A stretch of DNA of 34,968 nucleotides from Candidatus Woesearchaeota archaeon (GTDB lineage Archaea; Nanobdellota; Nanobdellia; Woesearchaeales; UBA10216): assembly GCA_016180065.1 (NCBI GenBank), contig JACPBY010000016.1, positions 1 to 34,968 on the forward strand. The letters run 5' to 3'. Positions 2,227-27,387 of the stretch are shown piece after piece. Positions within the stretch are counted from its first letter, which is position 1, and each line of letters begins with the position of its first letter. The notes beneath the pieces were generated by a model that was not told the origin of the DNA, did no database searches, and worked only from the letters and a program-made list of their open reading frames with translations. The translations under genes were made by a program, and so were the position numbers.

Positions 2227-3327
2227 CTAGTTGAAAGCAACAAACTTTAATTTGTCAACATTCTGCCTTGCCTTTTCAAGCTTGGTGGAGAAATCAGCCA
2301 GGAATGCAGTCATCTTCTCGCACGCAATCTGCTTCAGTTCCCCCGAAGTCATCTTGCCTGACTTGTAATCATCGTGTATCTTCTGCAGCTCGCTGTCATC
2401 CTCAACAAGGTGCTGCTTGAGCAGCTCAAACACCATGTCCTTTTCTATCACAGCTCCCAATTTCCTGTGCTCCTCAAGCGTATCCCTTCCTCCAGTAACC
2501 GCATTTTTTATCTTCTTGCATGCGCTTTTTGCATCCTCAGGCAGTTCTATGCAGCTTTCCGGCTCTGACTTGGACATTTTCAGCTTCCCGTTCAGCGCAG
2601 GCGTGTACCTGTTGTAGATGCCTGATGGCGGCACAAAGCCATACTTTGCCTTTGTCCTGGCGGCTATATCTCTTGTAAGCCTTATGTGAGGGTCCTGGTC
2701 AATTCCAACAGGGATTATTCCAGGCCTTCTTTTCTTCAGCTGCGGGTAGAGTATGTCTCCAACCTGAGTCAGTGCGCTGAACATCTTGCCCGGCTCATTG
2801 CTTCCGTAAATCGCCTCAAACTCGTTGGCAGTTATCTTCTTGGCAAACTCATAAGCAAGGTGCATTACCTCCTTGTTTTCTGACTGGAAGTAGAATGTTG
2901 TCTTTTTCGGGTCAAGCCCCAGTGCTATATAGGCTGGAATGTAAAATTCAAGCGCCCTTTTCCTGCCTTCTTCCAGGGTTATCCCCCTTGCTGCCGCGGC
3001 CTCAAGGTCTGCAACCAGCACATAAGTGTCAGCGCCGTGGTCCTGAAAGTATCTTATGTCCTCAATCACCATCTTCGTGCCGAGGTGTATCCTCTCCGCA
3101 GACGGCATTATTCCGGACAGCACATAGAAATCCTCTTTCTTTTTTATGGCGTCCGCTACCCTTTTGACATCCCGCCCGGCAAACACGACCCCTCTCCTCA
3201 TAAGCCTGCTCGGGCTTGGAAAAAGCTCCAGGTAATGTGAGAAGTGCTCCAGCCCAAAATCCTTTATCAGCTTTGTATAGTCCTCAACGAGGACCGAGCC
3301 CCAAGGGTCTATGGTTTTGGTCGTCAT
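2227..3327 (-). CDS. trpS: Tryptophanyl-tRNA synthetase (archaeal/eukaryotic type)
   Basis: Class I aminoacyl-tRNA synthetase that charges tRNA(Trp) in the cytoplasm. The 366-residue protein has the HIGH-equivalent GIMPSAERIHLGTKM around residues 72-86. This differs from the usual archaeal GFMPSGxxHxGH form in having LGT where the second His would be. The KMSKS loop is KLKMSKSEPES near residue 250. PVGIDQDPHIRLTRD is the typical archaeal/eukaryotic Trp-site segment, and the length is normal. ATG 3327 sits about 25 nt downstream of a clear TATA box, so the message is probably leaderless and independent of the cassette that follows it upstream in coordinates. The reading frame is complete. Confidence 0.96.
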   Translation of the reverse strand: MTTKTIDPWGSVLVEDYTKLIKDFGLEHFSHYLELFPSPSRLMRRGVVFAGRDVKRVADAIKKKEDFYVLSGIMPSAERIHLGTKMVIEDIRYFQDHGADTYVLVADLEAAAARGITLEEGRKRALEFYIPAYIALGLDPKKTTFYFQSENKEVMHLAYEFAKKITANEFEAIYGSNEPGKMFSALTQVGDILYPQLKKRRPGIIPVGIDQDPHIRLTRDIAARTKAKYGFVPPSGIYNRYTPALNGKLKMSKSEPESCIELPEDAKSACKKIKNAVTGGRDTLEEHRKLGAVIEKDMVFELLKQHLVEDDSELQKIHDDYKSGKMTSGELKQIACEKMTAFLADFSTKLEKARQNVDKLKFVAFN

Positions 3328-3358: not shown

Positions 3359-4147
3359 CTATGCAATTAGATATTTCAGCTTTTCGTAGGGCTCTTCCTC
3401 TGCCTTCAAAAAGTGCACATTATCGTAAGCGTATTTCCTGGGTGTGATTAGCAACGGATAAAATGACTTGCCTTTTTCTTTTGCTTTGACAAAATTCATC
3501 AACCCGGCATTGTTCCCTGATTCTGTGCTGTATGTGCTGTATGATGTGATGTCACGAACAACGAACAGCTTCTTTGGTTTTATTTTAAATCCTTTTGTCT
3601 CGCCAGTCATGCCCAGATTTGCCAGTATTTCCCTTACGATTTCATAAGTGTCTCTCGCAAGGTTTGCCTTTGCATGCTTTCCCATTTCAAGCGACACGCC
3701 GCACTTACAGTGGTCTATAAGCGCTTTCCCGCTCGCAATGCGTTTGTGCATGTAAACCACCCTCTCTACAGGAATGCGCTCCAAAAATCTTAAGTGCTCC
3801 TTTGTTATTCTGCTTAGTATTATGAACGGCGGCGTAGATGTGCTTGACGAGTGTAAATCCACCACAAAATCACTTTTTCTAATGGCTTTCATAATCTTTG
3901 CCGCTAAGCGCTGTTCATGATTTCCCTCCCAAGTTCCAGGAAAAGAGCGGTTAAGGTCTTGTTTCACAAATCTCTGTTTTCTATCATGGGCTTTTTGGTT
4001 GGCAAACACAGTAACCAGTGTTCCTTTCCTGATTTTTAGCTTCCTCAGTCTAGCTAACACTTCCTTCCCGTAAAATTCATTCCCGTGAATGCAGCCGATG
4101 ACACCCACTATCGGCCTTCCTTTAATGGTTGTCAGTCCCTGTTGCAT
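3359..4147 (-). CDS. AspA/AstE-like (M14-fold) zinc amidohydrolase
   Basis: Predicted zinc hydrolase of the succinylglutamate desuccinylase/aspartoacylase family, which removes acyl groups from amino-acid amides. The 262-residue protein shows HGNE (zinc ligands His21 and Glu24), QDLNRSFPG (residues 63-71, substrate-binding Arg), DLHSS with the third zinc ligand His99, and GVSLEMGKH with the catalytic Glu about 154. All key residues are present, so it should be active. The substrate cannot be read from sequence. The start ATG 4147 lies inside the 3' end of the GCS2-like gene (26 nt overlap), which implies translational coupling. It is the last gene of a four-gene cassette; pairing an amide-forming GCS2-type ligase with an amide-cleaving enzyme suggests they act on related compounds (inference). 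Confidence 0.82.
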   Translation of the reverse strand: MQQGLTTIKGRPIVGVIGCIHGNEFYGKEVLARLRKLKIRKGTLVTVFANQKAHDRKQRFVKQDLNRSFPGTWEGNHEQRLAAKIMKAIRKSDFVVDLHSSSTSTPPFIILSRITKEHLRFLERIPVERVVYMHKRIASGKALIDHCKCGVSLEMGKHAKANLARDTYEIVREILANLGMTGETKGFKIKPKKLFVVRDITSYSTYSTESGNNAGLMNFVKAKEKGKSFYPLLITPRKYAYDNVHFLKAEEEPYEKLKYLIA

Positions 4148-5360
4148 TTGAAACCTCTAAAGATGCTTCTATGTATGGCCTATTCAGCCTAAATGCTTCG
4201 ATGAGGCTGTAAATGGCTGCCTGATGCCCCCGTTCCACACCAATTGCTTGCAGGCGTTCTGCAATTGTTCCTTTTTGCAGCCTTCCTTCCAATGGCAAAA
4301 GGAGCTGCCGTTCATCATTTGGCAGTGCTGCCTTTGCCATAATCAAAGTCTCTCTAAACAGGGAAAGGTCAAAAATTCCGGCACAGACAGCTTCCTCCAA
4401 TTCTTGTTCCAGGTGCAAGTCTGTTATCTTTCTGGGTTTTTCACTCTCTGTAATGCCTTTAATCAGTGCAAACATTGCCATCGTATCTGCCAGGGACGGT
4501 TGCTTGTCCATTACCCTTATCTCTGCAGCAACTCCCCTGTGGGGCATTGGCCTGATTAAATGGTAGAATGTGTTTGGGTGTGGATATTTAGTTGCCTCTA
4601 CAGCCCTTACGTAATCTTCAAGGCTTTCCAAAGGCGGCGGAATCAAGTCAGAAAAAGCCAAAGGCTTTCTCAGTGTTGCTTCTACCGCGAGTTTATACAC
4701 TAAAAGCCGTTGGGACTGGTGATCCCTGGCTGATGAAGAGGTTAAATTGCCACTTTCCGTAAAGGGTGATGCGGCAGAAAACCCTGCAATTACCGGGAGG
4801 TATGTCCTTAGCAAGTTAAATGTCCTGAAGGCATCTTCTTCATTTTTCCCTCCAATGTTAAGCTGGTCGCTAGCTACTCTCGAAGCATAGTAGACAAAGC
4901 TATTCCCAAACAAACTGGCCAGTAGTTTGTATCTGCTGCTTGCATCAGCCCTGTGCGGTGTTTCAGAAAGCCCTGTCACTATGTCCTTTGGATTTATGCC
5001 GCTGATATGCCCTGCGTAAGCCAAAGGAAGTACTGCAGAATGCACTAATCTTTTTTGTACTCCCGAGAAAATGCCTAGAAGCTCTTTATACATTGCAGAT
5101 AAGGACTCATGCGGTGCTCCTGTGACTTCAAACTGGCAACAGCTTAGCTCAGGTTTAACGCAATCTTTCAATGTCTCGTCACTATACAGCCTCTCAGGAA
5201 CAGGCCTCAGTGCTATCGTTTCACTTAACACAGGCTGTGCAGTGAACTGCTCCAATTCAGGCCCGTATTTCCGCCCCTTGTAATCCGCTACAAATCGTGT
5301 AGGCCCCCCGAATGCCGAGTGGCATTTTATTTCATATTCCTGCCTGTTTGATGTTGTCAT
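4122..5360 (-). CDS. GCS2-type glutamate-cysteine-ligase-like carboxylate-amine ligase
   Basis: Predicted ATP-dependent ligase of the glutamine-synthetase-like fold, family GCS2 (YbdK/EgtA-like), forming an amide between a carboxylate (usually the gamma-carboxyl of glutamate) and an amine. In the 412 residues I recognise CQFEVTGAPH (75-84), the segment SDQLNIGGKNEEDAFRT (164-180) that corresponds to the HVHVG region, FNLLRTYLPVIAGFSAASPF (181-200), and AAEIRVMDKQPSLADTM (278-294), the counterpart of the family's EFRxxDxQPT motif. The usual HVH is replaced by DQLN, so the metal/substrate site may differ from true glutamate-cysteine ligases. The start ATG overlaps the membrane-protein stop as ATGA. 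Family assignment is fairly firm; the actual substrates are unknown. Confidence 0.72.
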   Translation of the reverse strand: MTTSNRQEYEIKCHSAFGGPTRFVADYKGRKYGPELEQFTAQPVLSETIALRPVPERLYSDETLKDCVKPELSCCQFEVTGAPHESLSAMYKELLGIFSGVQKRLVHSAVLPLAYAGHISGINPKDIVTGLSETPHRADASSRYKLLASLFGNSFVYYASRVASDQLNIGGKNEEDAFRTFNLLRTYLPVIAGFSAASPFTESGNLTSSSARDHQSQRLLVYKLAVEATLRKPLAFSDLIPPPLESLEDYVRAVEATKYPHPNTFYHLIRPMPHRGVAAEIRVMDKQPSLADTMAMFALIKGITESEKPRKITDLHLEQELEEAVCAGIFDLSLFRETLIMAKAALPNDERQLLLPLEGRLQKGTIAERLQAIGVERGHQAAIYSLIEAFRLNRPYIEASLEVSNATGTDNH

Positions 5361-5989
5361 ATGCTTTTCCCTCCAAATAGGTTTAAGAGCGGCATTAGAA
5401 TCTTTGAAAGCAGGAAATAGACTAAGAACGGATGGACTATTGCAGCCAGGAGCAACTTGCCTGTGGGAGCTCCAAACATTGTTCCCAGGAAGATGAACAG
5501 CACGTCATTTGCGAAGACATATGCTGTGCCAGCCATTACAAGGTAGTTCAATGGAACGACTGCAGCCAATAAGCCTAATAGGGCAAACGAAATGGCATAT
5601 ATCCCTGATAAGAGTGCATTGCGGAATAGCATGAAATTTATTGAATGCCCCAAGAGTACAGAAAGCAAACCGACGATTATGCCAGCTTTTGGCCCGAACA
5701 GGTTGCCCGCAGCCACTGTAAAAAAGCTTTGAAGCTCAAAGTCAAAGCCCACATTAAATGCGATCTTGTAGACGGTTGAAAGCGCGCCTAGCACAATAAA
5801 AATAGTTAAAACAAAAAATACGGGCTTGAAAACTGCCAGCAAAAGGCTTGTGCAAACAAGCCCACTCAAAACTTTGTGCTTTTTTATTAGGCTTGATACG
5901 GAGCTGAGAAAGCTGTGAATTAAGCTAAGACTGGCTCCAAGCCTTCTATTGTTAAGCGCTCCGCTGAAATTTACAGGGAGAAATTCCAT
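5357..5989 (-). CDS. Polytopic membrane protein, possible ECF-type substrate-binding (S) component
   Basis: A hydrophobic protein of about 210 residues with five or six membrane segments. The stretch FFTVAAGNLFGPKAGIIVGL resembles the small S components of ECF transporters, but I see no decisive signature; a general small-molecule permease is equally possible. ATG 5989 is chosen because it follows the regulator's stop codon directly (TAAGATG). An earlier in-frame ATG at 6034 would add 15 polar residues overlapping the regulator gene. The 3' end overlaps the ligase gene by 4 nt (ATGA). No ATPase partner lies in this window. The context suggests transport of the substrate or product of the ligase and amidohydrolase encoded next to it. 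Confidence 0.6.
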   Translation of the reverse strand: MEFLPVNFSGALNNRRLGASLSLIHSFLSSVSSLIKKHKVLSGLVCTSLLLAVFKPVFFVLTIFIVLGALSTVYKIAFNVGFDFELQSFFTVAAGNLFGPKAGIIVGLLSVLLGHSINFMLFRNALLSGIYAISFALLGLLAAVVPLNYLVMAGTAYVFANDVLFIFLGTMFGAPTGKLLLAAIVHPFLVYFLLSKILMPLLNLFGGKSI

Positions 5990-5990
5990 C

Positions 5991-6245
5991 TTAGGCCATC
6001 CCCCTATAGAAATAGAGTTTTCTTCTGGTGTCATTCAAGAGTATTCTGAAGAAAGCCAGCTTTCTTTGTACAACTTCTTTAAGTGCGTACTTCACAGCCC
6101 TCTCAGAAAGCCCTGTCTCTTTGATTATCAGCTGTTGTGAAATCCCATCACTATGGCGGTGGCCAGATAGAACATCAAGCACTTTCACGCAACTGTTCGG
6201 GAGCCGAATGCCACCGGCAACCACCCCTGCCTTGTATTCCTGCAA
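5991..6245 (-). CDS. Small winged-helix DNA-binding protein, likely cassette regulator
   Basis: Up to 84 residues with a single winged helix-turn-helix. LPNSCVKVLDVL is helix 1, QLIIKETGLSERAVKYALKE is the turn and recognition helix, and LNDTRRKLYFY is the wing. The pattern matches small archaeal MarR/ArsR-like regulators that begin near an LPPSAKxVLKVL motif, so the domain is complete. The start is uncertain: TTG 6245 follows an in-frame TAG, and GTG 6224 (with AAGG upstream) is the other candidate; there is no in-frame ATG. A TATA box at 6430-6437 would start transcription near 6407, leaving a leader of about 160-180 nt with three hairpins. It is first in the cassette and probably regulates it. 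Confidence 0.7.
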   Translation of the reverse strand: MQEYKAGVVAGGIRLPNSCVKVLDVLSGHRHSDGISQQLIIKETGLSERAVKYALKEVVQRKLAFFRILLNDTRRKLYFYRGMA

Positions 6246-6268
6246 CTACCTTAGAAACCTGTTCCGGC

Positions 6269-6348
6269 TGCAAATCGGGCAACAGCCCGATTGCACAGTC
6301 GCAAGTCCTGCACGGCAGGACTGCGCATTCCGCTGTAGGCGGAATTGC
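6269..6348 (-). promoter_or_regulatory. Leader with three tandem hairpins of identical architecture
   Basis: Three perfect inverted repeats stand side by side upstream of the winged-helix gene. 6325-6348 has ATTCCGC/GCGGAAT with a 5-nt loop. 6301-6324 has AGTCCTGC/GCAGGACT with a 3-nt loop. 6269-6295 has AATCGGGC/GCCCGATT with a 4-nt loop. Each stem is closed by an outer GC clamp set off by a single bulged base, yet the stem sequences differ completely. Smaller hairpins lie at 6196-6208 (TTCGG/CCGAA) and 6209-6219 (TGCC/GGCA), inside the start of the gene. With transcription from about 6407 these would form in the 5' leader of the cassette mRNA. The inverted repeats are seen directly; an RNA-level role is inferred. 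Confidence 0.6.
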
Positions 6349-6429
6349 GGCTGCTGCCGACTTGTGCCCAAAGGCAATCACCACTCATCGTCGCAGTTGA
6401 ATCCATAATCACTTGGTAGAACAAGCTTG

Positions 6430-6437
6430 CTTAAATA
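6430..6437 (-). promoter_or_regulatory. TATA box of the wHTH/membrane/GCS2/M14 cassette
   Basis: On the minus strand the element reads AAGTATTTAAGC and its centre is about 27 nt from ATG 6406. That ATG opens only a 51-codon frame made largely of the hairpin repeats. The first credible gene start is 160-180 nt further on, so this promoter seems to give an unusually long leader for a genome that otherwise looks leaderless. Confidence 0.5.
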
Positions 6438-6456
6438 CTTTTAGATAGGTGCAAAG

Positions 6457-7416
6457 TCAGCTTTTGGCAGCCACCGCCTTCTTCACAACATCCGCTATCG
6501 CTTCCGCATCCAGCCCGTACTTCCTGAACAGGACTTTCTGCGTGTCTGATTCCGCAAACCTGTCCTTCACCCCAACCATCTGGAACTTTACAGCCAGCCC
6601 TTCCTCGGCGATTACTTCAGCCACAGCGCTTCCCAGCCCTCCGATGATGTTGTGGTCTTCTGCAGTTATCATCATTCCGGTTTCAGCAGCAGCTATTATT
6701 GCATCTCTATCAATAGGCTTTATCGTTGACATATTTACAACTTTGATGCTGATGCCCTCTTTTTTCAGCAATTCTGCAGCTGCCATTGACTCCTGCACCA
6801 TTATGCCTGATGCGATTATTGCAGCATCGTTACCATCTGCAACCACAGAAGCCTTGCCAATTTCAAATTTGTAGCTGTCATCATAAATCGTCTTCACATT
6901 TCCCCTTCCCAGCCTGACATAGGCGGGGCCTTTTATTCTGGCAATCTCAAGTATTGCCTTTTCAGCTTCCACAGCGTCAGCAGGGCATATCACGATGAAG
7001 TTCGGCACCGCCCTCATGTAAGCAACATCACCTATTGCCTGCGCTGTGGGGCCGTCCTCGCCAATAGCAACCCCTGCATGTGTGCCTATTATCTTGACGT
7101 TGCTGTTTGAGTAAGCTACCGAAACGAAAATCTGGTCCATGCCCCTTCCCAGCAGGAATGCTATGAAGCTTGTTGCAAAAGCGGTCTTGCCGCACTTGGC
7201 CATTCCCGCAGCCGTGCATATCATGTCTCCTTCGCTTATGCCCATGTTGAAGAACCTTGCAGGCCACTTCTCGCCGAATTTGCCGCTTTTTGTTGAGTCA
7301 GAGACTCCTGCATCCAGCACGACAACATTCGGGTCGCTGCCGCCAAGCTTAACCAAAGCATTTCCGTAGCCGTCCCTTGTGGCTGCCTCTTTTGCCGTTG
7401 TTGTTTGGGCGCTCAT
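6457..7416 (-). CDS. Transketolase, C-terminal subunit
   Basis: The pyrimidine-binding and C-terminal half of a thiamine-diphosphate transketolase, which in many archaea and some bacteria is a separate 310-330 residue polypeptide (319 here). Visible: GISEGDMICTAAGMA with the catalytic Glu that activates thiamine diphosphate, THAGVAIGEDGPTAQAIGDV, and a C-terminal Rossmann-like domain with ITAEDHNIIGGLGSAV. It works with the N-terminal subunit encoded just upstream, whose stop overlaps this start codon as ATGA, giving equimolar translation. Role: two-carbon transfer between sugar phosphates, probably to make pentose and erythrose phosphates. The homologous halves of DXP synthase are less likely because of the close transketolase motif match. 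Confidence 0.92.
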   Translation of the reverse strand: MSAQTTTAKEAATRDGYGNALVKLGGSDPNVVVLDAGVSDSTKSGKFGEKWPARFFNMGISEGDMICTAAGMAKCGKTAFATSFIAFLLGRGMDQIFVSVAYSNSNVKIIGTHAGVAIGEDGPTAQAIGDVAYMRAVPNFIVICPADAVEAEKAILEIARIKGPAYVRLGRGNVKTIYDDSYKFEIGKASVVADGNDAAIIASGIMVQESMAAAELLKKEGISIKVVNMSTIKPIDRDAIIAAAETGMMITAEDHNIIGGLGSAVAEVIAEEGLAVKFQMVGVKDRFAESDTQKVLFRKYGLDAEAIADVVKKAVAAKS

Positions 7417-8237
7417 TTTTGTGCCTCCAGTTCAGCAACAGCCTTGTTGAACATTTCCTGGTTTGGAGCCTTGCCATGCCACGCGTTTTGGTTCTCCATG
7501 AACGAAACGCCCTTTCCTTTTATGGTGTCAGCCACGATTACAATCGGCTTCCCTCTTGTCTTTTTTGCAGCTGCAATAGTATCAAGTATTGTGCTAATGT
7601 CATGCCCGTCAATCCTGTAAACCTGCCACCCAAACGCTTCAAACTTTTTGTCAACAGGCTCTATGCCTTTCATTGTCGCAGTCATGTTATCCTGAGCTAC
7701 CCTGTTGTTGTCAACTATTGCAACCAAGTGGTCGCTTTTGTATTGTGCTGCGCTCATTGCAGCCTCCCACACCTGCCCCTCGTTAAGCTCGCCGTCTCCC
7801 AGCAGCACATAAACATAATATTCCTTCTTGTCAAGCCTGCCAGCCAAGGCCATGCCGTGCCCGACAGAGAGTCCCTGCCCGAGCGAGCCTGTTGCTATTT
7901 CAACCCCTGGCAGCTTCGGGTTTGGGTGCCCTGTCAGCCTTCCAAGCCTTCTGTACGTTGCCAGCTCCTCTTTTGGGAAATAGCCCACATCAGCAAAAAC
8001 AGAGTAAAGAAGCGGTGTGCAGTGCCCTTTGCTTAGTATGAACCTGTCCCTGTCTGCCCAGTCAGGCCTTTTCGGGTCATACTTCATCTCGTTGTAATAT
8101 AGAACTGTCAGTATATCTGCGCCGGATAATGAGCCGCCCGGATGCCCTGAGCCTGCATGGAAAATGAGCTTCAGGCTGTCAATCCTAAGCTGTTTTGCCT
8201 TTGCCTTTAGCTTTGTAACAGTTGCTTGGTCAGCCAC
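7413..8237 (-). CDS. Transketolase, N-terminal subunit
   Basis: Diphosphate-binding half of the split transketolase, 274 residues. It has SGHPGGSLSGADILTVLYY, the gate His in KGHCTPLLYS, TGSLGQGLSVGHGMA, and the thiamine-diphosphate/Mg motif GDGELNEGQ followed about 25 residues on by VDNN. The start is GTG 8237, with a GGGGG purine run about 8-12 nt upstream; no better ATG exists in frame. It is translationally coupled (ATGA) to the C-terminal subunit gene. The COG1325-like gene ends 36 nt upstream on the same strand, so the three may share a transcript, although a weak TATA-like AATATAAAAC lies in the gap. Confidence 0.92.
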   Translation of the reverse strand: MADQATVTKLKAKAKQLRIDSLKLIFHAGSGHPGGSLSGADILTVLYYNEMKYDPKRPDWADRDRFILSKGHCTPLLYSVFADVGYFPKEELATYRRLGRLTGHPNPKLPGVEIATGSLGQGLSVGHGMALAGRLDKKEYYVYVLLGDGELNEGQVWEAAMSAAQYKSDHLVAIVDNNRVAQDNMTATMKGIEPVDKKFEAFGWQVYRIDGHDISTILDTIAAAKKTRGKPIVIVADTIKGKGVSFMENQNAWHGKAPNQEMFNKAVAELEAQK

Positions 8238-24046: not shown

Positions 24047-24835
24047 TCAGGCAATATTAACAACCGCTTCGTATAATTCAGGCCATCGGTCTTGCTTCAT
24101 TCTGAACTTTGTCCCGTGGTTATGGCTTGTTCGGGCATCAAAATCTACATAGATAGTCCCATTCTCTATTGCAGAAATAAAGCGGCTTAAACTAAACTTT
24201 TGAAGCATTTTTATGTCAGAATACTTAAAATATTCTTTTCCATCAATTCGTTTAACTTCTGCTTTCACAAAAAAACAATTCAATAGTTTTGTGCCTGCTT
24301 TATGAAACAAGTCATCAAAACCCCAATATGGCTGCGGGTTAAGTTCACTTAATCCAGTTCGCTTTTTTACTGACGCTAGCCAATCTTTATGCCGAGGGGA
24401 AACAGCTTTAGCATCAAAAGATGTGAGTACTTTTCTATTTTTACTGTCTATGGCCACCTTAAACCCTCTATCGCTTCTTGTCGTGCAGCTTATTGTTTGT
24501 CTAAAACTCATTTCATTTGCAGGATATTTAGTTCCTGCTTCTTGGTGCTTCCAGCCATATTTTAAAAGCAGAATGTTTGGAACAAATTTTAATACTCTGG
24601 GAGACGGTTCCATATGAAACAGAGTTGTAAGTGAAGAAGTATCTGTCCTTTGGCATTTCAGTTCCCATTCGGCAGCGTTTGGTATAGGGAGATTGTTCTC
24701 TTTAATCCCTAAAAAGTCCTCTAAGGTGTTTCCTACTCCACCAACATTTCCTTGTCTGCCTCCAAGAACCCGCCCTTTACTTTTAAGCTCACGGAGTTTC
24801 TGAATCAGCTTGTCTTTAGTGTAAATTTCAACCAT
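24047..24835 (-). CDS. MvaI/BcnI-family type II restriction endonuclease
   Basis: A 262-residue nuclease. Family signatures are VGGVGNTLEDFLGI (31-44), then AEWELKCQR with the catalytic ExK (58-60), and the C-terminal VDFDARTSHNHGTKFRMKQD typical of MvaI/BcnI enzymes. Known relatives act as monomers on CC-W/S-GG sites; the exact site here cannot be read. ATG 24835 begins 4 nt after the methyltransferase stop, so the two are co-translated, methyltransferase first. The DNA is visibly more A+T-rich than the ribosomal or primase genes, as expected for a mobile defence module. Confidence 0.85.
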   Translation of the reverse strand: MVEIYTKDKLIQKLRELKSKGRVLGGRQGNVGGVGNTLEDFLGIKENNLPIPNAAEWELKCQRTDTSSLTTLFHMEPSPRVLKFVPNILLLKYGWKHQEAGTKYPANEMSFRQTISCTTRSDRGFKVAIDSKNRKVLTSFDAKAVSPRHKDWLASVKKRTGLSELNPQPYWGFDDLFHKAGTKLLNCFFVKAEVKRIDGKEYFKYSDIKMLQKFSLSRFISAIENGTIYVDFDARTSHNHGTKFRMKQDRWPELYEAVVNIA

Positions 24836-24839
24836 TCAG

Positions 24840-25763
24840 CTAACCGTCACGATTGTCATTAGTTGTATCGGCAGGTTTCCAAAAGTCGAGCAGATATTCA
24901 AAAGTTACGCCCATGGTGATGTAGTTGCTTGGCCAACCAAAAATGCCCACTTTGTTAACAATGTTTGTTCTATCCCAGATTATTGTATTTCTTAATTCAT
25001 ACCCTCTTTTTCTCAATTCTTCAATTAAAGAAACGTGAATGGTTATCCTCTTATTTTCCCACCACATATCAGGGACATTAATGACGCAATGGCCTTTTTG
25101 TTTTAATAAGGGCAGCAGCTTTTCAAAAATATCCCCCATATTTTTAGTGTAATCTTCAATGGACATTGTTCCAAGGTCTCTTACGTCTTGCGAATATTGT
25201 TCTACAATCCCAAGCTGCCCATTGTCCCTGTCCCTTCTTGATTTGTTCTTTCTTGCCCTGTTAAGAAGATTGGCGTATGGTGGGGATGTCCAAATAAGCT
25301 TTATCGTATTAGGTTTAAAATACTCAGGTATGTTTATTGCATCATCACAAACTGCAATCTGCTTTGCTGTGCCAAACAGTTTAGTTTCTGTTAATCTGCT
25401 CTTGGCAAGTTTAACGAATTTCTCGTTTAAATCAAAACCAACGGCGTTTCGCTCTAAATCTTGGGCTGCTACAAGCGTTGTTCCACTGCCAACAAACGGG
25501 TCTAAAATAAGTTCCCCTTTGTGAGTGAACAACTCAATAACCTTCTTTGATAAGGAAATCGGAAATGTTGCAGGGTGAACAGTTTTATCCCTTATGTCTC
25601 TTTTTTCATAAAAAAACTGCCATACTCCTATTTGACTTTTAAGCCATTCTTTTGCGGTCATGCAATTAAGATGGGTTATGTCACAATCGCAAACGCGTTC
25701 GCTGCTTATGTTTAGTGGTTTCTTATGGATTGCCGTAGTTTTCATTTCCATTACACTTTCCAT
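24840..25763 (-). CDS. Type II DNA methyltransferase, probably N4-cytosine
   Basis: Protects the host from the neighbouring endonuclease. From ATG 25763 it has 307 residues: HPATFPISLSKKVIELFT then DPFVGSGTTL (88-97, AdoMet site), the catalytic TSPPYANLLNRA (TSPPY 159-163), and a C-terminal target-recognition region. SPPY is the usual form in N4-cytosine enzymes, matching the m4C methyltransferases that accompany MvaI/BcnI nucleases. The frame is open further upstream to a TTG at 25877 that overlaps the helicase gene. Codons before 25763 look less protein-like and a TATA-like ATAATTTAAAAG lies in them, so the ATG cluster at 25763/25751/25745 is preferred. A+T-rich like its partner. Confidence 0.85.
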   Translation of the reverse strand: MESVMEMKTTAIHKKPLNISSERVCDCDITHLNCMTAKEWLKSQIGVWQFFYEKRDIRDKTVHPATFPISLSKKVIELFTHKGELILDPFVGSGTTLVAAQDLERNAVGFDLNEKFVKLAKSRLTETKLFGTAKQIAVCDDAINIPEYFKPNTIKLIWTSPPYANLLNRARKNKSRRDRDNGQLGIVEQYSQDVRDLGTMSIEDYTKNMGDIFEKLLPLLKQKGHCVINVPDMWWENKRITIHVSLIEELRKRGYELRNTIIWDRTNIVNKVGIFGWPSNYITMGVTFEYLLDFWKPADTTNDNRDG

Positions 25764-25830
25764 ACCCTCTTTTAAATTATCCTCGCTTATAAGCCTTACG
25801 CCTTCTTGTCCAGTGTCCAGTGCCCTCTCG

Positions 25831-27387
25831 TCACGAAAACTTTCCGGAATCAAGTTGTTTCTGCCCTGCCGGCTCAAGCTTTAGCTTGCTTTTAAGCGTT
25901 TTCAGTATGCGGTGCATCCTTTTTTCCTTGTGGTGGGCAACCCACCTGAAAGTCTCGTCCCTCGTGTTTCTCGTCATGAGTATTGTGACCTTGCCTTTTT
26001 CCTGCCTTCCTGTCCTGCCCCTTCTTTGTATCTGCCTTATTGCTGAGGGTATGGGCTCATAAAACACGACAAGGTCGACCTTTGGTATGTCAAGCCCTTC
26101 TTCCCCTATCGAAGTGGCTATTATGACGTTAAACTCACCTGCTGTGAACTTGTCAAGAAGTTCCCGCTGCTGTTTCTGGCTCAATCCAGTTTCGCCTTTT
26201 TTCATCTGCCCGACAAAGATGCTTGCCCGTATGCCCTCAATCTGGTTCAGTTCCTCCTGCAGCTTCAATGCAGAATCCCTGTAATGGTTGAAGACTATTG
26301 CCTTTGCGCCTTTGGCATCTGCAATGTTTTCTTTTATTATCCTTTTCAGCTCGTCGATTTTCGGGTGCTCAATCTTTTTTTCATGGAGCTGCTGCGTTTT
26401 GGCAATTGCTGCGAGGAAGTTGTTGTCGGAAAAAAGCCTTTTTGCGGCCTTTGTTTTTCCCGCCTTCGCATCTTCCCTGAGCCTGTCAAAGTACTTTTGC
26501 AGCGCAGTGATTCCCTGCGTTTCGAGAAGCTCAAGCGCATGCCCGACTTTCATGGCTTCCGCGAGTGATGATATTGCCCTCAGGAGAGGAAAATTTCTGT
26601 AATCGCCTGCGAGTTCAGAGCGGAGAGATGCCTGGAGCTCCAGAAGTTCTTTTTTGGAAATTCCAGTGATGCCTCTGAGGTAGCCTGTATTTTTCACCAC
26701 TTCCAGCTTTGACCTGAATGAAGCGTCGAGAAGCTTTTTTACTTCTGCAAATTCAGGCGGAAGGTCTACCTTCACCCAGTCAATCTCTATTTCCTGGATG
26801 TAAGGCTTGACGTCAGGGTCTGCCTCTGTCCTTACCTCTATGTCCTCTATTGAGAGGTTCCTGCACACCTCGCTTATCTTATCCAGGTCGCTTCCTGGTG
26901 ATGCCGTGAGTGCAAGTACCCTCGGGAACCTGGCGGTTTTCATGTAATGCTTTGCTATCCATACATAGCTGTATTCTTTTACTGCCCTGTGCGCTTCGTC
27001 AAATCCCAGCAGGACAACATCCTCAAGGCTTATCTTCCCAGACAGAAGGTCATTCTCCAGGCCTTGGGGTGTGCTGAATATTACGCTGGCTTTTTCCCAA
27101 AGCCCTCCCCTTTTTCCCGCAGCAACCATTCCCGTAAGCACAGCCATTTTCTCTTCAGCAATGTTCAGGTGCTTCTTGAACACTTCCATGTACTGGTCTA
27201 TAAGCGGCCTTGTCGGCCCTATGAAAAGTATCTTGCTGTCAGGATAGAGCTTAAGCCTGTGAGCTGCCAGCATAAGGAATATGTTTGTCTTCCCAAGGCC
27301 TGTTGGAAGCACTACAAGCGTGTTTCTTGCCGCAGCAGTTGCCAGTATGGTTTCCTGGTAAAGCCTTGGTGTAAAGCCTTTTATCAT
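25831..27387 (-). CDS. hef: Hef/FANCM-type SF2 DNA helicase (helicase half of Hef)
   Basis: Remodels stalled replication forks. From ATG 27387 it has 518 residues: motif I VVLPTGLGKTN (28-34), GPTRPLIDQY, DEAH at 130-133, LTASPGSD, an insert domain between the two RecA folds as in Hef/MDA5-like helicases (about 180-330), and motifs V-VI IATSIGEEGLDIPKVDLV and QIQRRGRTGR. The C-terminus stops soon after the helicase fold. The XPF nuclease that Hef normally carries is a separate gene beyond the restriction-modification pair. A TTG at 27414 would add nine residues. The stop lies in the region upstream of the methyltransferase gene. Confidence 0.93.
   Translation of the reverse strand: MIKGFTPRLYQETILATAAARNTLVVLPTGLGKTNIFLMLAAHRLKLYPDSKILFIGPTRPLIDQYMEVFKKHLNIAEEKMAVLTGMVAAGKRGGLWEKASVIFSTPQGLENDLLSGKISLEDVVLLGFDEAHRAVKEYSYVWIAKHYMKTARFPRVLALTASPGSDLDKISEVCRNLSIEDIEVRTEADPDVKPYIQEIEIDWVKVDLPPEFAEVKKLLDASFRSKLEVVKNTGYLRGITGISKKELLELQASLRSELAGDYRNFPLLRAISSLAEAMKVGHALELLETQGITALQKYFDRLREDAKAGKTKAAKRLFSDNNFLAAIAKTQQLHEKKIEHPKIDELKRIIKENIADAKGAKAIVFNHYRDSALKLQEELNQIEGIRASIFVGQMKKGETGLSQKQQRELLDKFTAGEFNVIIATSIGEEGLDIPKVDLVVFYEPIPSAIRQIQRRGRTGRQEKGKVTILMTRNTRDETFRWVAHHKEKRMHRILKTLKSKLKLEPAGQKQLDSGKFS

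Follow-up and report, generated by a model that had tools for sequence, protein, structure and literature searches.

A trpS-linked variable slot in a Woesearchaeota genome carries a candidate operon for reversible amino acid conjugation

The analysed stretch, here called the window, is a contig of 34,968 nucleotides (JACPBY010000016.1) from a Candidatus Woesearchaeota genome (GCA_016180065.1) of ~1.06 Mb and 88% completeness. It carries a cassette of four genes coding for a small winged-helix (wHTH) regulator, a polytopic membrane protein, a GCS2-like ligase and an AspA/AstE-like hydrolase. Judged from its sequence, the set is an operon. It fills a variable slot between the C-half of a split transketolase gene and trpS. 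The cassette was tentatively read, at slightly less than even confidence, as a regulated operon that would reversibly conjugate an amino acid, perhaps an aromatic one and possibly tryptophan, in a gamma-glutamyl-type linkage. All genomes compared were metagenome-assembled genomes, many loci stopped at contig edges, and calls of neighbouring genes rested on profiles built within this analysis.

A genome from a different genus of the family (G015, JACQST010000003.1; L002/L004/L093) had the whole cassette in the same gene order, with identities of 47-48, 47, 53 and 46% per gene (range 46-53%), which speaks against a chance arrangement. A GCS2 gene abutted or overlapped an AstE-like gene in seven genomes, which belong to six family-level groups, and either gene could come first. 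Besides the window and G015, these were G442 (L009), G430 (L025), G323 (L033), G622 (L149) and G530 (L133). The order was reversed to AstE-GCS2 in G530, and its ligase was the closest outside one of the window type, with 217 bits. The initial annotation had singled out co-occurrence of the two homologues as a point to check, and they do co-occur. In the sample of the class, all four genomes that held both families had the genes adjacent. Over whole genomes of the class, the two families occurred together only about twice as often as expected (4 genomes seen, ~2.1 expected from 26 and 31 of 378); the pairing signal lies in adjacency. This adjacency, overlapping or abutting and in either order, speaks against the reading that the two enzymes share no chemistry and are independent passengers of two gene types often inserted in small archaeal genomes. 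That reading is the least probable of those weighed here. In its favour, the slot swaps cargo freely and both genes are sporadic: the window-type ligase was found in 3 of 193 relatives and the hydrolase in 31 of 378 genomes. A third ligase gene (G179, L003/L005) stands where its contig stops, so that its neighbourhood cannot be judged. The AstE-like family as a whole occurred in ~50 genomes of the class over two overlapping samples (31/378 and 26/353).

The hydrolase was not confined to the ligase as partner. In ~15 genomes it stood beside a GNAT-like acyltransferase, which was usually directly upstream. Pfam supported the GNAT assignment at L017 (1.3e-9), L026 (5e-4) and L014 (0.009), and the remaining acyltransferases were recognised by profile relatedness. 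In a tree of 28 hydrolases, a single clade of the five best-placed GCS2-linked ones was rejected (approximately unbiased test, p-AU 0.018), and the tree required at least three partner changes. The ligase and the hydrolase, first described as one set, are thus not a fixed pair. Instead, the hydrolase is the constant component and the amide-making enzyme is swapped, and the repeated joining of different amide-makers to the same hydrolase argues for action on the same bond. In one family of the class, GNAT-like and AstE-like genes, or an AstE-like gene alone, were located beside the gene for HisRS (L028, L031, L032).

Other GCS2 genes of the class also adjoined hydrolases or ATP-grasp enzymes, which makes the ligase-hydrolase pairing a usual one. 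GATase_4 (class-II amidotransferase-like) hydrolases were neighbours at six loci (L055, L056, L043, L063, L068 and L060), a class-I GATase at L007 and glutathione-synthetase-type ATP-grasp enzymes at L045 and L047. The arrangement resembles EgtA/EgtC, in which a GCS2 ligase likewise stands beside an amide hydrolase; the window hydrolase differs in being a zinc AspA/AstE enzyme and not class-II amidotransferase-like. By analogy with EgtA/EgtC in ergothioneine synthesis, the ligase could add a gamma-glutamyl group to an intermediate as a transient protection and the hydrolase remove it at the end of a pathway whose middle steps are encoded elsewhere. The window pair would then be the AstE version of the GATase_4 pairings, and the QxN motif shared with plant glutamate-cysteine ligases would fit. 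We consider this alternative unlikely, as neither the window cassette nor that of G015 holds a further tailoring enzyme and the genome is only ~1 Mb in size. Plasmid-borne haloarchaeal AstE homologues had no adjoining GCS2 gene; one Natrinema glutamate-cysteine ligase was ~3 kb away. A literature search found no paper on a GCS2-AstE pair.

The ligase matched PF04107 (GCS2) with E=1.2e-8, above the curated Pfam cut-off, and the GCS2-like assignment made initially was thereby confirmed. It remained below all NCBIfam equivalog and subfamily cut-offs for glutamate-cysteine ligase (GshA/EgtA) and YbdK, the best score being 40.2 bits against 176.4 for TIGR02050. A profile of GCS2-like ligases had the plant glutamate-cysteine ligases (2gwc/6gmo) as its best solved relatives, at 5e-24. 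The catalytic residues are intact. Invariant among nine relatives were GxExE (33-37; G33, E35, E37), E78, Q166, R218 and ExR (E280, R282), and they align with those of 2gwc. The window ligase thus resembles the GCS2 family, including plant glutamate-cysteine ligases, YbdK (1r8g/1tt4) and EgtA, in its profile over the catalytic domain, in GxExE, E78, QxN, R218 and ExR; it differs in lying far below every equivalog cut-off and in having no adjoining glutathione-synthetase or ergothioneine genes. The replacement of HVH by DQLN had been taken as a sign of an unusual substrate. This argument was dropped, since plant glutamate-cysteine ligases carry QVN aligned to the QLN of the window and HVH is the form of YbdK.

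The hydrolase matched PF24827 (AstE_AspA_cat) with E=3.8e-23, which likewise bore out the proposed family. Its scores against the NCBIfam equivalog models for aspartoacylase (PRK02259), AstE and DoeB were 68.1, 25.3 and 23.3 bits, with cut-offs of 180, 305.65 and 402.7 bits. Because both enzymes passed the Pfam cut-offs and were far from the equivalog models, each is assigned to its family and not to a specific function. Six hydrolase residues were invariant in ten relatives. Of these, H21, E24 and H99 are presumably the zinc ligands (HxxE...H), N66 and R67 the carboxylate clamp and E154 the general base, as in human aspartoacylase. The zinc- and carboxylate-binding residues of aspartoacylase, succinylglutamate desuccinylase, DoeB and aminoacylase-3 are therefore kept; the family found here is distinguished from these enzymes by its compact size (235-265 amino acids), its scores below all equivalog cut-offs and its pairing with amide-forming enzymes.

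The membrane protein had no family match in the Pfam search. An AlphaFold2 model based on 18 family members reached a predicted local distance difference test score (pLDDT) of 87 and a predicted template modelling score (pTM) of 0.76. The leading Foldseek matches were S-components of energy-coupling factor (ECF) transporters, FolT (probability 0.99), PanT (0.96) and RibU (0.93), with weak, non-significant E-values (none below 0.2) and TM-scores of 0.3-0.5 (TMq 0.46-0.50). The predicted fold therefore agrees, if weakly, with the small-molecule carrier suggested at first. ECF transporters with S-components such as RibU, FolT, PanT and ThiT differ from the system studied here in that EcfT (CbiQ, PF02361) was absent from all 19 family genomes in a profile search with a positive control in 10 of 14. 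A canonical ECF transporter was thus rejected, and the protein perhaps works like a solitary S-component. Single genomes of the window's family carry as many as seven members of this membrane-protein family, and the copies often stand in tandem. Multicopy and partly tandem membrane proteins of ~190 amino acids with an S-component-like fold were observed at L083, L080, L087 and G000:C11:49564-51570.

From these parts, a mechanism of four steps is proposed. Going by its family, the GCS2-like ligase would use ATP to couple an amine, likeliest the alpha-amine of an amino acid, with a side-chain carboxylate, likeliest the one at the gamma position of glutamate. The AspA/AstE-like zinc hydrolase would cleave the amide and free the amino acid, as suggested by its family and by the swap with acyltransferases. 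The S-component-like membrane protein may bind or move the amino acid or the conjugate, and the small wHTH protein may switch the operon from a conserved promoter and leader.

The genes are tightly joined. All four open reading frames (ORFs) lie on the reverse strand and are connected, as described in the initial annotation, by a TAAGATG junction, an ATGA and a 26-nt overlap. The ATG of the membrane protein at 5989 follows the stop codon of the wHTH gene in TAAGATG, the ligase and membrane-protein genes overlap as ATGA (5357-5360), and the ligase and hydrolase genes overlap at 4122-4147. The four ORFs stand within the span of 3359-6440 first given for the cassette; its last part, 6246-6440, is not wHTH coding sequence and holds a strong TATA promoter, a short ORF and a leader element (Table 1). 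For the wHTH gene, the conserved GTG at 6224 is the more likely start than the TTG at 6245.

Table 1. Features of the cassette and its borders in the window (strand relative to the contig).
Feature	Position	Strand	Basis or remark
AspA/AstE-like (M14-type) zinc amidohydrolase, 262 aa	3359-4147	-	PF24827, 82.5 bits, cut-off 25
GCS2-like ATP-dependent carboxylate-amine ligase, 412 aa	4122-5360	-	PF04107, 35.1 bits, cut-off 21
Polytopic membrane protein, 210 aa, ECF S-component-like predicted fold	5357-5989	-	AlphaFold2 and Foldseek
Small winged-helix (wHTH) regulator	5991 to ~6224 (GTG) or 6245 (TTG)	-	Sub-threshold HTH_24
Short ORF MDSTATMSGDCLWA...AAGTGF	6251-6406	-	Start ~25 nt past TATA box; leaderless-looking
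Leader element GTGATTGCCTTTGGGCA	6364-6381	-	Conserved; inside short ORF
Promoter TGCACCTATCTAAAAGTATTTAA (BRE/TATA), 23 nt	6431-6453	-	Conserved at wHTH-bearing slot loci
trpS, tryptophan--tRNA ligase, downstream slot border	2227-3327	-	TIGR00233, 252.7 bits, cut-off 176.75
Split transketolase, upstream slot border	6457-8237 (C-half 6457-7416, N-half 7413-8237)	-	ORFs; same neighbours in relatives

The regulator had a sub-threshold match to HTH_24 only (0.0057), and homologues were present at the same locus in seven other genomes. The promoter occurred once in the window and recurred with 0-2 mismatches at all eight wHTH-bearing slot loci. These loci also shared the leader element GTGGTTGCCTTTGGG, with the copy of G004 read by eye. 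Loci without the wHTH gene had no promoter: G007 kept a leader copy only, and G006 and G012 had neither. The leader of the window held a specific insert of ~90 nt with three hairpins inside the region 6251-6453. In the wHTH-bearing loci, the TATA box was followed at ~25 nt by the start of a short ORF that contained GCLW, DCLW or a similar motif (GCLWA/G-type). This conserved ORF would suit a reading in which a peptide, perhaps the product of the short leader, receives an amino acid through the ligase and is trimmed by the hydrolase. RimK/RimB, an ATP-grasp ligase paired with an AstE-like hydrolase, would be the analogue. Such peptide or protein modification is very improbable, as the leader was also present in slots without GCS2/AstE cargo and shares its DNA, in a different frame, with the wHTH start. 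In addition, GCS2 enzymes usually use free amino acids as substrates. Since the same DNA forms the wHTH start in another frame in some genomes, the short ORF was taken as a regulatory leader and not as a product peptide; it is possibly the operator.

The slot held different cargo in related genomes. The order wHTH-membrane protein-GCS2-AstE was found in the window and G015, whose contig ends before any transketolase. In G005 and G001 the wHTH and membrane-protein genes were followed by genes for a 307-aa protein and a histidine phosphatase, with the two halves on separate contigs in G001. G004 carried wHTH, a TyrRS-fold protein and an Asp/Glu racemase, and G009 and G017 carried wHTH and the TyrRS-fold protein, with a broken frame in G017. 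The wHTH gene of G018 was followed by TrpE-like and TrpG-like genes (anthranilate synthase). The slot held the racemase only in G007 and was empty in G006 and G012. Pfam and NCBIfam confirmed the racemase, TrpE/TrpG-like and phosphatase calls. The regulator, initially regarded as dedicated, is not confined to the ligase and hydrolase, and neither is the membrane protein, because the genes for both front other enzymes at the same locus in genomes of the same genus. The 307-310 aa protein (L091:3757-4686, L092:992-1912), with an APSCPDYKH.. motif and followed by the histidine phosphatase in the same slot, belonged to no known family, and searches of its sequence against solved structures gave nothing useful. 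The trpS gene at the slot was of two diverged types with ~35% identity (the window copy and L004:4363-5490). They alternate between close relatives, which suggests replacement of the synthetase gene.

The TyrRS-fold family (L116:6699-7559, L119:2054-3055, L154:1489-2367, L158:1282-2283) was unannotated and apparently without the HIGH signature. Its sequence gave nothing useful against solved structures. An AlphaFold2 model with a pLDDT of 88 matched TyrRS in Foldseek at 3e-9. The gene also adjoined trpS in G114 and G058 and the racemase gene in G114, G031 and G091. A relation to cyclodipeptide synthases was suspected by eye and is unproven; the best AlphaFold and Foldseek matches were TyrRS. 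Compared with cyclodipeptide synthases and class Ic aminoacyl-tRNA synthetase-like proteins, the slot cargo has a TyrRS fold and forms a tandem with trpS. A single distant relative matched TIGR04539 at 4e-5, and no cyclodipeptide synthase was among the best 50 structure matches listed. Family members, which are absent from the window, are possibly cyclodipeptide-synthase-like enzymes.

Such cargo bears on a reading of chemical conflict at aminoacyl-tRNA synthetases, in which the slot enzymes make, modify or neutralise an aminoacyl inhibitor or mimic and the adjoining trpS variant would be a target that resists it. In favour of this reading, every slot terminates at trpS, of which two types occur within the family, the TyrRS-fold protein and the amino acid racemase are among the other cargo, and GNAT-AstE pairs also adjoin the HisRS gene. 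We rate this reading as rather improbable. An inhibitor pathway, exporter or toxin was not identified, and no cassette protein had a PADLOC match, on which ground an anti-phage defence island was rejected. The trpS type was also uncorrelated with cargo: the window and the cargo-free G006 had the same type, and G015 had the same cargo as the window with the other type.

For the preferred conjugation reading, the neighbourhood of the AstE-like genes gave a lead on the substrate. An AstE-like gene lay at most three genes from the TrpRS gene in the window, G015, G135, G342, G260 and G249, near the TyrRS gene in G323, near a prephenate dehydratase gene in G442 and beside a tyrosine-decarboxylase-like gene in G571. 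Given this linkage to trpS, tyrS and genes for aromatic amino acids, the best guess for the substrate is an aromatic amino acid, with tryptophan as the first candidate. The pattern agrees with the activity of mammalian aminoacylase-3, a member of the same M14 group that deacetylates N-acetyl aromatic amino acids (PMC11511702).

Several points weigh against reversible conjugation of an aromatic amino acid. The substrate is one that we infer, and the aromatic link is only a lead, because it was noticed after looking and some cases share ancestry. The HisRS neighbours of AstE-like genes in G473, G419 and G264 would point elsewhere. A ligase and a hydrolase acting in opposition would run a futile cycle if they were not kept apart temporally or spatially, and we know of no characterised AspA/AstE enzyme with a gamma-glutamyl-amide as substrate. 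The structural match of the membrane protein is weak, as noted.

Elsewhere in the window, neighbouring genes at 24047-25877 resembled, by eye, a DNA methyltransferase and a restriction-enzyme-like protein.

In a wider view, which is speculative and which we think unlikely, the trpS-linked slot would act in reduced archaea as a modular site into which enzyme sets are plugged. A single promoter, leader and wHTH switch would drive interchangeable modules for amino-acid-derived small molecules (gamma-glutamyl conjugates, TyrRS-fold aminoacyl-transfer products with D-amino acids and chorismate-derived products), tied to tryptophan charging and used in symbiont-host signalling or competition. DPANN archaea are usually seen as stripped of secondary chemistry, and a conserved switch with exchangeable modules beside trpS, together with the recurrent pair of amide-forming and amide-cleaving enzymes, gives a testable handle on their small molecules. 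The rule of a fixed hydrolase with a swapped ligase or acyltransferase could assign substrates in the widespread compact AspA/AstE subfamily.

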